The translations under genes and the position numbers were made by a program. The notes below the pieces were generated by a model, which worked only from the letters and a program-made list of their open reading frames with translations, ran no database searches and was not told the DNA's origin. This document shows, piece by piece, positions 34,788 through 43,990 of a stretch of 64,000 nucleotides of DNA (position 1 is the first letter of the stretch; each line of letters opens with the position of its first letter). Origin of the DNA: Rhodothermia bacterium (GTDB lineage Bacteria > Bacteroidota > Rhodothermia > Rhodothermales > UBA2364); assembly GCA_017303715.1 (NCBI GenBank), contig JAFLBZ010000006.1, positions 62,001 to 126,000 of the forward strand, in the 5' to 3' direction.

Positions 34788-35354
34788 ATGGCACAAAATC
34801 CAAACCTTACCCAACTCCTCCGACAAATCAGTGACGGCGACCAAAAAGCGCTAAATGATGTTTTTCCACTGGTTTATGATGAGCTTCGCGCTATTGCACA
34901 CCATCGTCTTGCCCGCAATCGAATGGGCGAAACGCTGAATACGACCGCCTTGGTGCATGAGGCATACATGAAATTGATAGATCAGTCGCAGTCCCACATC
35001 AATGATCGCAGCCATTTCTTCGCACTCTCCAGTGTGGCAATGCGTCACATTTTAGTGGATTATGCCCGCTCGCGGAGCGCTGCAAAACGCGGTGGTGCAA
35101 ATGTGGCACTTAGTTTAGATGATGTGAATATTGCCGTCGAAGATCGTGCGCAAGAACTGTTAAACTTAGACCAAGCGCTCGAAAAGTTGGCCTCGGTCAA
35201 TGAACGCATGTCTAAAGTGGTGGAATATAAATTCTTTGGTGGCTTAACGAACGAAGAAGTTGCCACGGTGCTTGGCGTATCGGTTCCGACGGTCAAGCGC
35301 GATTGGCAGTTTGCCCGAACTTGGTTGTACCAGCACATGACCTCAGACCAATAA
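34788..35354 (+). CDS. ECF sigma factor, TIGR02999-like, with Thr-Thr in region 2.2
   Basis: A 188-residue sigma-70 factor with regions 2 and 4 only. Region 2 holds FPLVYDELRAIAHHRLARN, then LNTTALVHEAYMKL, and HFFALSSVAMRHILVDYAR; region 4 has FFGGLTNEEVATVLGVSVPTVKRDWQFARTWL. This pattern matches the TIGR02999 family, often paired with Ser/Thr kinases. The acidic D-x-E-D residues that most ECF factors use to bind core RNA polymerase are absent; Asn51-Thr52-Thr53 stand there. In the Vibrio EcfP/PknT system such a factor is activated by phosphorylation of a threonine. The kinase gene starts 14 bp downstream. I chose ATG 34788; the open frame upstream lacks sigma features. Confidence 0.88.
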   Translation: MAQNPNLTQLLRQISDGDQKALNDVFPLVYDELRAIAHHRLARNRMGETLNTTALVHEAYMKLIDQSQSHINDRSHFFALSSVAMRHILVDYARSRSAAKRGGANVALSLDDVNIAVEDRAQELLNLDQALEKLASVNERMSKVVEYKFFGGLTNEEVATVLGVSVPTVKRDWQFARTWLYQHMTSDQ

Positions 35355-35368
35355 GCCGCTTGGGTGCT

Positions 35369-36592
35369 ATGCAAGATTTGGATCGGATACAAGATTTATT
35401 TAGTGAAGCCCTCGAACAACCATTGAATTTACGAACGGAATGGTTGAAAATGGCTTGTGAAGGGAATGTACCACTCTTTGCCGAAGTCCAGAAGTTGCTC
35501 AATGTAGCTTCGCAGGCACATGACGCCTTTGGCGAATCCGGCTCCGAATTTTTCGAGCCGCTCTTGGGGCAATTAGAAACTGAATTAGAAGGAAAAGACT
35601 GGGTTGGACGGCAAATTGGCCGGTATCATATCCAGAAATTGCTTGGACATGGGGGCATGGGAGCCGTTTTTTTGGCAGAAGAGCGCGGTGCAATAACCCG
35701 GCGGGTTGCGCTTAAAATTGTCCGAAGAGGTATGGATACCGACCACATGATCCGTCGGTTTAAGACCGAACGCACGGTCTTGGGTGCATTGAACCATCCC
35801 AATATTGCAAGGCTAATAGATGCGGGGGTTAATGATGACGGACAGCCTTATTTTGTGATGGAATACATCAAGGGGAAGGCCATCAATACCCATTGCGATG
35901 ATCTGAGGCTACGCATTGACGAAAGGCTGGAGGTATTTCTACCCGTTTTGGAGGCCGTTGGCTTTGCGCACCAAAACCAAGTAATCCACCGAGACCTCAA
36001 ACCGGGGAATATCCTGATTAATGACCTGAACGAAGTTAAACTTTTGGACTTCGGGATTGCCAAAGTCTTAGACCCCAAAAGATATAACCTTTCCTTCTCT
36101 ATCACCCAAACAGAACTTCGGCTTCTGACGCCGGAATATGCCAGTCCAGAACAAATTGCCGGCAAACAAATTGGGCCAACTGCCGATGTGTATCAATTGG
36201 GCGTTTTACTGTATGAACTCATCACCGGCCACCGCCCGTATAGTTTGGGAAATATCGCCTCTAAATTTGAAATGGCACGCATTATTTTGGAGGAACCGCC
36301 CACCCGTCCCAGCTCCGTAGTTGAGAAAGTTGTGAAGTTGGCGCATGGACGTAAGCAAACCGTCGTACTTTCCCCCGAAGAAGTGGCCAACAGCCGGAGA
36401 ACCACCTTGGAGCGCCTTAAACACCGGCTTATAGGAGACCTCGAATTTATCTTAAACAAGGCTTTAGAGAAAAAACCGGAAGACCGGTACCAAACCGCCG
36501 AAGCCTTTGCGGAAGATATTCGCAAGCACCTGAAAGGCGTTTCTATTCAAGGTCGTGCCAACGGATTTTGGAAAAAGATGTTGAGGAAATAA
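35369..36592 (+). CDS. Hanks-type serine/threonine protein kinase
   Basis: A 407-residue soluble kinase. Residues 1-80 are a helical N-terminal extension (DRIQDLFSEALEQP-type, seen in ECF-linked kinases). The catalytic domain follows: glycine loop LLGHGGMGAV (91-100), ATP lysine K116 in VALK, catalytic loop HRDLKPGN with D209, DFG at 227-229, a TPEYASPE activation-segment end, and TADVYQLGVLLYEL. Related kinases beside TIGR02999 sigma factors usually continue into a membrane segment and TPR or WD repeats; this one ends near residue 407 after an EDIRKHLKG helix, so it lacks those sensors. It follows the sigma gene by 14 bp and very likely phosphorylates it. Confidence 0.92.
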   Translation: MQDLDRIQDLFSEALEQPLNLRTEWLKMACEGNVPLFAEVQKLLNVASQAHDAFGESGSEFFEPLLGQLETELEGKDWVGRQIGRYHIQKLLGHGGMGAVFLAEERGAITRRVALKIVRRGMDTDHMIRRFKTERTVLGALNHPNIARLIDAGVNDDGQPYFVMEYIKGKAINTHCDDLRLRIDERLEVFLPVLEAVGFAHQNQVIHRDLKPGNILINDLNEVKLLDFGIAKVLDPKRYNLSFSITQTELRLLTPEYASPEQIAGKQIGPTADVYQLGVLLYELITGHRPYSLGNIASKFEMARIILEEPPTRPSSVVEKVVKLAHGRKQTVVLSPEEVANSRRTTLERLKHRLIGDLEFILNKALEKKPEDRYQTAEAFAEDIRKHLKGVSIQGRANGFWKKMLRK

Positions 36593-41998: not shown

Positions 41999-43693
41999 AT
42001 GCGTAACCTGATTTCCATATTCCTGATAACTGCGATCTGGAGCCTCATCAGCCCAGTTGTTGCTCAAGAAATGCCCCTGAGGGGGATGGTTTGGGATGTA
42101 CCCAAGTCCGAAAAAGAAGCCCTTTCCGAGATGAAAGCCCTGCATAAGATTGGCGTAAGGGCCTTAAGAACCAATTTGGTCTGGCGAGACACACTCTTTG
42201 CCTTGGCGGATTCTATGGGCATGTATTTTTTTCAGGAGCTCCCTTTTTCTGATCTCTCGGTTGCAGAACTCCGGCGGATGCTCCCGTTTGCGATTAAAAC
42301 CCTTTCTAAGAACATCGAAAAATCAAAGAAGTATCGTTCAGCACGGTACTTTGGTCTTGCCCAGAACTGCGATACCAGCGATCCCGCTGCCATGGTGTAT
42401 TTCTCCGGATTGATGAATGTCATACGTACAAAGGGCGCACCTTTTACACAAGGTTATTACACCACCTCTTTCACCAAACGCGACCAAGCGTTTCCTTCGG
42501 TAGATTTTGTCTTGGTGAAAGCCATAGATCGCGATGATCCGATTGCCCTTACCCAGCAAATGTCTCGACAAACGAATGGCAAAGCGATGGGGGTGGTCTT
42601 AGGTATGGGGGTTTCCCGCGAGAACAGAATGGGATATAAGGTGCAAAATAGTCCCGAAGCCCAAGCGCGATATTTGGAGCGAAAACTCAATCGGTTGGTA
42701 TATACGTCTCCAGTACCGCTAAAAGCTATTTTTGTGTATCGTTGGAAGGACGTCTCCCGATCCATTTTTTCACAAAGTGCAACAACGGATCACAATTTGC
42801 ATTATGGCCTTTGGGGAACCGATAAAAAACCAAGGCCGGGCTATGACGTGGTAAAAGGAATATATACGGGTAAACAAACCGTTTTTGCCTTTAAAGCGGG
42901 TTCGCCTTTGGCCCAAGATCAGGTTTGGATGATTATTTTGGGTTGGGTGATTGTAGCCCTTATTGTGATTGCGTACATCCTTTCGTATCGGCTTCAAGAT
43001 ATTTTGCCTCGCTTTTTCCTTGCTCACGATTCGTATCAAGAATATCTCCTGCGGTCGCGAGATGCACATACCGGAACAAATGCCTTGCTAATGGTGGCTT
43101 TTGGTCTTTGCGCGGGCTTATCAAGTGTTATTATCTTTTATGGACTTAGGCCATACTCTGCACTGGGGTATTTTGTCGAAGAACTGCCCGCGATGTTCCA
43201 ATTCGTTGTTTTGGCGGCTCTCCGGATGCCGTGGAGTTTTTCGCTCTTTGCTACAGTGATCTTTGCGGCCACGATGATTTTTATTGCCCTATTGTTATAC
43301 GGCCTTGCGCGGTATTTTGGCCAACAAACCATTACACCGCAAAAAACCCTTATGGTTACGGTTTGGGCACAGTGGCCTATGGTCATTCTCATGTTAACGG
43401 CCATGGTAACGTTTAATACTTGGGGAACCTCCAGTATGTTGCCTCCCTTATATTTAATCGGATTTTGGGGCTTGCTTAACATTTTAGCCTTTTTCCAGAT
43501 TGCATACGACTTTGCCTATATTGTCAAAAAGCCTTTTTGGATGCTTGCTTTAGGAGGATTGGCCGCCTTTGCGCTCATCAGCATTGTGTTTTTACTTTTT
43601 AGATTCCCCGAGATGTCTTCGGAATGGAACTTCTTAACCAACCTCATCAAAGAGGGATTGGAACGCGGTGTTTACGTCTCACCCACAAACTGA
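41999..43693 (+). CDS. Degenerate glycoside hydrolase-like domain fused to a multi-helix (Yip1-like) membrane domain
   Basis: A 564-residue protein with a signal peptide (IFLITAIWSLISPVVA). Residues about 25-290 recall the TIM barrel of GH2-type enzymes: LRGMVWDVP, EMKALHKIGVRALRTNLVW, LADSMGMYFFQELPF, a VDFVLVKAIDRDDP strand, and SPEAQARYLERKLNRL. The place of the acid/base N-E carries N-C (GLAQNCDTSD) and the usual nucleophile E region reads VVLGMGV, so both catalytic acids appear lost. From about residue 309 there are six or so hydrophobic segments (WMIILGWVIVALIVIAYIL, LAALRMPWSFSLFATVIF and others) with Yip1-like spacing. It may be a carbohydrate-sensing or export-associated membrane protein; function unknown. 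The DciA-like gene follows six bases behind. Confidence 0.7.
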   Translation: MRNLISIFLITAIWSLISPVVAQEMPLRGMVWDVPKSEKEALSEMKALHKIGVRALRTNLVWRDTLFALADSMGMYFFQELPFSDLSVAELRRMLPFAIKTLSKNIEKSKKYRSARYFGLAQNCDTSDPAAMVYFSGLMNVIRTKGAPFTQGYYTTSFTKRDQAFPSVDFVLVKAIDRDDPIALTQQMSRQTNGKAMGVVLGMGVSRENRMGYKVQNSPEAQARYLERKLNRLVYTSPVPLKAIFVYRWKDVSRSIFSQSATTDHNLHYGLWGTDKKPRPGYDVVKGIYTGKQTVFAFKAGSPLAQDQVWMIILGWVIVALIVIAYILSYRLQDILPRFFLAHDSYQEYLLRSRDAHTGTNALLMVAFGLCAGLSSVIIFYGLRPYSALGYFVEELPAMFQFVVLAALRMPWSFSLFATVIFAATMIFIALLLYGLARYFGQQTITPQKTLMVTVWAQWPMVILMLTAMVTFNTWGTSSMLPPLYLIGFWGLLNILAFFQIAYDFAYIVKKPFWMLALGGLAAFALISIVFLLFRFPEMSSEWNFLTNLIKEGLERGVYVSPTN

Positions 43694-43699
43694 TGTTTG

Positions 43700-43990
43700 A
43701 TGAAACACCATAAACCCAAAAAATTGGATGCCGTTTTAGATTCCCTTATCGACAAATGGGGGATACGGGAACGCATCGAAACCGCAAAAGTTATTGAGGC
43801 TTGGGCCAATTTAGCCGGTCCGCAAATCAATGGGGTTACAGAGGCGGTATGGTTTAAAAATGGGCGCCTCTTCGTCCACATCATTTCACCAGCATGGCGG
43901 CAAGAATTGTACATGCGCAGAGCAGAGTGGCTTAGACGACTAAACGAAGAGTTAGAGACTGGTAGGGTAGAAGAAATTGTTTTTCGGTAG
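43700..43990 (+). CDS. DUF721 (DciA-like) domain protein
   Basis: A 96-residue protein of the DUF721 family: LDSLIDKWGIRERI, AKVIEAWANLAGPQINGVTEAVWFKNGRL, then FVHIISPAWRQELYMRRAEWLRRLNE. DciA, from the same family, is the replicative-helicase (DnaB) loader of most bacteria lacking DnaC; short versions like this one have the KH-like core only. Chromosomal copies in Bacteroidota are usually near recF/gyrB-type genes or, as here, alone. An in-frame TTG precedes the ATG by one codon. It is six bases behind the 41999 gene and so probably cotranscribed. It is nucleic-acid-binding by family, cytoplasmic. Confidence 0.82.
   Translation: MKHHKPKKLDAVLDSLIDKWGIRERIETAKVIEAWANLAGPQINGVTEAVWFKNGRLFVHIISPAWRQELYMRRAEWLRRLNEELETGRVEEIVFR

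Follow-up and report, generated by a model that had tools for sequence, protein, structure and literature searches.

A GH2-type barrel without its catalytic glutamates, fused to a Yip1-like membrane domain, is conserved in an order of the Rhodothermia

A gene at positions 41999–43693 of the forward strand of the window, the whole 64,000-nucleotide stretch of Rhodothermia DNA analysed here, encodes a 564-residue protein composed of a signal peptide, a predicted periplasmic barrel of the glycoside hydrolase family 2 (GH2) type, and a membrane domain of six helices. The fold of the barrel and the loss of its catalytic glutamate pair are well supported, and we consider it very probable that the parts taken together, a pseudoenzyme in this architecture, are correctly described. 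The gene is nearly universal in its order and has homologues in other classes of the phylum. We propose that its product is a non-catalytic inner-membrane receptor or scaffold, perhaps with a role in the cell cycle, and give this reading a probability of roughly 45%.

The signal peptide (residues 1–22; positions 41999–42064, forward strand) is visible in the hydropathy profile and as a helix at residues 2–17 of the AlphaFold2 model; its hydrophobic helix ends in SPVVAQ, the cleavage site being judged by eye. The barrel occupies residues 24–293 (42068–42877, same strand) and the membrane domain residues 309–558 (42923–43672, same strand), with about six transmembrane helices in the C-terminal half according to both hydropathy and the AlphaFold2 model. 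No Pfam or NCBIfam model matches the 564-residue protein above chance. An earlier note on this DNA had proposed that a glycosidase-like half is joined to a polytopic membrane domain; the open reading frame is as it described, and the same fusion recurs in the order and across the phylum. Start codons of the orthologues were chosen by rule, and the N-termini of L017, L019, L021 and L028 are uncertain.

A profile of 29 orthologues (alignment A1, which holds 29 of 30 loci, the stop-split locus L018 being left out) finds GH2 barrels among PDB sequences, with 3fn9 at E = 2e-6 and 6ncy at 2.7e-6; eight PDB sequences match at E ≤ 1e-4. The AlphaFold2 model made with the same alignment (pLDDT 84.9) contains eight strand-helix repeats within residues 27–290, that is, a (beta/alpha)8 barrel. 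When the barrel model was used as a Foldseek query, all 50 entries among the matches listed were beta-glucuronidases or beta-galacturonidases, and VIA-align superimposes residues 21–292 on the GH2 beta-galacturonidase 6ncx_D with a Z of 26.9 and an rmsd of 2.8 over 267 residues. Structure prediction, which the earlier note had recommended, therefore returns a TIM barrel comparable to those of GH2, and the GH2-type barrel that had been proposed for the N-terminal half is borne out by profile matches, model and superposition alike. Pfam PF02836 has no match in the 564-residue protein at E values up to 10, and matches two of the 29 orthologues (best E 0.033). Features shared with the beta-glucuronidases and beta-galacturonidases of GH2 are the barrel fold, a strand-2 arginine, the HPS and GL motifs, Q222 and an RPA..V ending. 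Unlike these enzymes, the 564-residue protein has neither catalytic glutamate and neither a jelly-roll nor an immunoglobulin-like domain, and it carries a polytopic membrane domain. The GH2 sugar-binding and immunoglobulin-like domains are absent, with only the signal peptide lying ahead of the barrel.

Aligned by profile, the "NE" pair of GH2 falls on Q122-N123, so the place of the acid/base glutamate, after strand 4, is N123 (codon 42365–42367, forward strand), while the place of the nucleophile glutamate on strand 7 is V200 (codon 42596–42598, forward strand), two residues before the invariant G202. Both glutamates are absent, as had been read directly from the sequence, but the acid/base site had been placed one residue late, in an "N-C" pair: the position is N123 and not C124. 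Glutamate is found at position 123 in none of the 83 order rows having a letter there and at position 200 in 3/85, and the complete pair occurs in 0/85 order loci (85 of the 86 loci, as the distant L088 misses the E ≤ 1e-60 cut). Because both catalytic residues are missing, the 564-residue protein is, judged from its sequence, not a GH2 member in the enzymatic sense.

Among residues located close to or at the strands' C-terminal ends (strand positions taken from the AlphaFold2 model), several others are strongly conserved. These are W249 (85/85), D251 (84/85), W32 (82/82), Y153 (80/84), R57 (79/84), D125 (70/84 order rows; codon 42371–42373, forward strand), an acid at position 80 (81/84) and T126, which is also kept; D125 is the acid of a DTS motif after strand 4. 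The kept residues may line one pocket, the mouth of the barrel. The pocket of the window protein is not fully conserved, since position 174, an aspartate in 77 of the 85 order rows, is a lysine (K174) in the window's genus.

Modelled alone, the membrane domain reaches a pLDDT of 91.5. Among the 29 orthologues, the first two predicted cytoplasmic loops average 5.2 and 2.9 Lys and Arg residues, and two predicted periplasmic loops 2.0 and 0.3. The signal peptide and the positive charge of the predicted cytoplasmic loops argue for a barrel on the periplasmic side, which agrees with the inner-membrane placement, barrel toward the periplasm, that had been suggested before. The description of this half as a Yip1-like multi-helix domain fared less evenly: the half does form a membrane domain, with some six helices, but the likeness to Yip1 comes through relatives only. 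Pfam Yip1 (PF04893) is unmatched in 29/29 close orthologues. It does match 7 of 20 long relatives, which are described below, and among ten C-terminal halves of long relatives tested against it one lies just over the cut-off (28.8 versus 28.6 bits). Comparison with solved structures does not match the membrane domain convincingly to any fold (lowest E 2.1 in Foldseek, highest Z 5.8 in VIA-align), and its sequence profile reaches a best E of 0.3 against the PDB. A Yip1 entry is not named among the matches listed in the PDB searches, and these results are no argument against a Yip1 fold.

Prokaryotic Yip1 and DUF4271 (PF14093) are polytopic domains of comparable size, and the 564-residue protein matches neither PF04893 nor PF14093. 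DUF4271 was considered as a possible stand-alone remnant of the membrane domain in the Bacteroidia; hhalign gives E = 0.27 and 0.049, the value of 0.27 for the membrane domain against DUF4271 being non-significant. The idea is attractive because DUF4271 is found in 49/198 genomes of the phylum, all 49 outside the window's class, and because 3 of the 15 proteins from the sister lineages match it at scores under the cut-off. The open frames L266–L277, of 213–479 residues, are DUF4271 membrane proteins from other classes of the phylum and may be distant kin of the membrane domain.

The gene is found in 112 of the 114 genomes of the order, including all 77 of good quality and all 49 genera, and it is single-copy. 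In the class sample it is present in 151/195 genomes. Matches occur in 100 of the 247 genomes of the phylum sample, although some of the weaker ones, which cover the barrel only, are probably ordinary GH2 enzymes. A comparison of two congeners gives dN/dS values of 0.06 over the gene as a whole, 0.04 over the barrel and 0.05 over the membrane half (against the window gene itself, synonymous sites are saturated), and these low ratios show that the gene is under purifying selection. The orthologue L018/L106 of genome G021 is interrupted by an in-frame TAG, which may be a genuine disruption or a fault of the assembly.

Proteins of other classes also combine these two domains. The 20 of these long relatives that were first examined have 845–902 residues, and in them Pfam recognizes the GH2 barrel in 20/20, the immunoglobulin-like domain in 19 and the sugar-binding domain in 17, in addition to the seven Yip1 matches; they consist of a complete GH2, with two beta domains and the barrel, followed by the membrane domain. 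A scan of named genomes with the long-form alignment gave 356 relatives, and the best 80 of the 356, which were kept, come from Ignavibacteria, Kryptonia, Kapaibacterium, Chlorobi and unclassified Bacteroidota. The order and the long forms align end to end over both halves in hhalign (E = 1e-49). The profile comparison of the order with its sister lineages also covers both halves (E = 2e-40). The 15 sequences from these lineages have a shortened barrel but retain the membrane domain and the fusion. A search for the same fusion elsewhere, another of the checks that had been proposed, has yielded a core gene of the order and homologues across the phylum. We know of no family name for the long GH2-Yip1 proteins of Ignavibacteria, Kryptonia and Kapabacteria.

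Nine of 100 long loci duplicate others, and the following counts are quoted on the 91 that are distinct. The acid/base glutamate is retained in 27, the nucleophile in 5 and both in 3 (likewise 3/100 in the raw count, duplicates included). All three proteins with both glutamates belong to Kryptonia and carry GIGNEF and ITEYG motifs, and the commonest residues at the nucleophile place in long relatives are Arg or Lys. The designation as a pseudoenzyme, which the earlier note had made dependent on what relatives retain, hence holds throughout the 85 order loci, but as 3/91 distinct distant relatives have both residues, it does not extend to every member of the family. That so few keep the pair indicates that the ancestor was probably an active enzyme and that catalysis was lost repeatedly. 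In a quick tree, in which the sister lineages have long branches, a fully supported branch sets the 32 long forms apart, and the Kryptonia rows nest among them. An active ancestor with several losses is the easiest account of this placement; regain is also possible.

The gene adjoins cell-cycle genes in separate lineages, a recurrence that the earlier note, based on the letters of this DNA, could not reveal. Four of the 86 order loci have an end too near to judge, leaving 82 testable, and ftsZ was counted where it lies on the same strand at most 1500 bases upstream. It is found there in 39/82 loci from seven families: f2 (4/4), f4 (17/17), f7 (1/1), f8 (3/3), f14 (5/5), f12 (3/6) and f3 (6/6, with an opposite-strand gene in between). 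In these loci ftsQ and ftsA mostly lie ahead of ftsZ. Families f1 (that of the window), f5, f6, f9, f10, f11, f13 and f15 lack the adjoining ftsZ, which is missing from 43/82 loci altogether, and ftsZ is near the gene in 0/14 loci of the sister lineages. In f15 its place directly upstream is taken in 15/15 loci by a large M14 zinc carboxypeptidase gene (for example L082:7790–10393, reverse strand).

In the long relatives the gene directly downstream is smc (SMC by Pfam) in 80 of 87 testable distinct loci, with a gap of at most 50 bases in 77 of those 80; the raw count, duplicates included, is 89/96. In the window the neighbour is dciA (43697–43990, forward strand; Pfam DciA E = 7e-19), which encodes a short helicase loader of 97 residues from a TTG start at 43697 or an ATG at 43700 and begins 3 bases past the stop codon of the 564-residue gene. 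In 8/8 other loci of f1 and f12, dciA is likewise the first gene recognised after it, although the distance exceeds 1 kb in two of the eight. The occurrence of three cell-cycle neighbours in separate lineages suggests a functional link, as far as gene order can indicate one. However, the smc block of the long relatives also holds tpiA and two genes identified by eye, gatB and one that is lpxB-like, so the synteny with ftsZ and smc may instead reflect passive inheritance of a gene block.

Several other genes were observed nearby. An MlaC-like gene is among the neighbours, as is an outer-membrane efflux gene. The gene L085:4279–5268 (forward strand) and its homologues encode products of about 330 residues with no Pfam match, glycosyltransferase-like by eye in the case of L085, and are the next recognised gene, in convergent orientation, in 47/86 order loci. 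Elsewhere in the window, positions 35303–36592 hold an open reading frame that, read by eye, is Ser/Thr protein kinase-like with no obvious sensor part.

Under the receptor or scaffold reading, the six-helix Yip1-like domain would hold in place a periplasmic GH2-type barrel lacking the catalytic pair. The mouth of the barrel, lined with conserved residues, would bind either a protein partner or a glycan of the envelope. The membrane domain would pass this binding on to inner-membrane machinery or anchor such machinery, and the neighbouring ftsZ, smc and dciA genes suggest machinery of the cell cycle. While we infer the binding, signalling and cell-cycle steps, the reading is favoured by the anatomy of the protein, the catalytic loss, the kept residues of the mouth, the shrinking of the barrel while the fusion is maintained, and the gene linkage. 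Sugar sensing, one of the two roles suggested in the earlier note, is at this stage a conjecture.

The product could instead be an envelope transporter or a handler of lipids or glycolipids, in which the barrel captures a substrate that the Yip1-like domain moves or flips and the ftsZ and smc gene order is inherited and meaningless. Transporter, channel or receptor roles have been suggested for prokaryotic Yip1 members in a review of the family (PMC6682643), and the MlaC-like and outer-membrane efflux neighbours, with the lpxB-like gene of the long relatives, would fit such a role. We nevertheless regard it as unlikely, since smc and ftsZ, not these genes, show the tightest linkage; the structure searches with the membrane model also gave no transporter fold (Foldseek best E 2.1, VIA-align Z 5.8), which is weak evidence.

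That the protein is still an enzyme, with catalysis shifted to D125, D162, D169, D251 and the aspartate that the family has at 174, is quite improbable in our estimation. Acids are indeed conserved at these places (D251 84/85, D169 83/85, D162 78/84, D174 77/85, D125 70/84), and three Kryptonia relatives keep the classical glutamate pair. However, the GH2 pair is missing in 85/85 order rows, D125 is not invariant, the window protein has K174, and the barrel of the sister lineages is degraded while the protein persists. A neutral relic in the course of being lost would explain the missing catalytic residues and the stop-split L018 of genome G021, yet this is extremely improbable, being already contradicted by a dN/dS of 0.06 between congeners and by the presence of the gene in 112/114 genomes.

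Searches of open-licence PMC papers gave no description of this architecture among the matches listed, in keeping with the earlier remark that it was not a recognised one. Its nearest counterparts are the long GH2-Yip1 proteins of Ignavibacteria, Kryptonia and Kapabacteria, which match it along the full extent of both barrel and membrane domain but are longer, carry GH2_N and GH2 beta domains ahead of the barrel, adjoin smc and include three members of 91 with both glutamates. Further parallels, Klotho and YKL-39, are animal proteins from other GH families, and Klotho has a single membrane helix. Both are known pseudoglycosidases, GH1-like and GH18-like respectively, in which a glycosidase fold without catalysis is used for binding, and Klotho is part of a receptor complex, according to the review PMC7828330. 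By analogy, the 564-residue protein may work like a pseudoglycosidase receptor.

A near-universal, single-copy gene of the order with homologues in neighbouring classes likely matters to the cell. The proteins form a series, from a full GH2 with its glutamates (Kryptonia) to a full GH2 without them (most long relatives), a bare barrel (the order) and a shrunken barrel (the sister lineages), which shows an enzyme becoming something else with its membrane partner kept. The review PMC6682643 states that, as of 2019, prokaryotic Yip1 relatives had no reported function, and the combination of a Yip1-like domain with a domain of known fold and with linkage to smc and ftsZ makes that function testable. 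A broader proposal, which we consider unlikely, is that these proteins form an ancient class of bacterial transmembrane pseudoglycosidases in this phylum: the dead periplasmic barrel would read the state of an envelope glycan, and the Yip1-like domain would couple it to the division and chromosome machinery of FtsZ, SMC and DciA. If true, such a class would provide the first handle on the role of prokaryotic Yip1-like domains.
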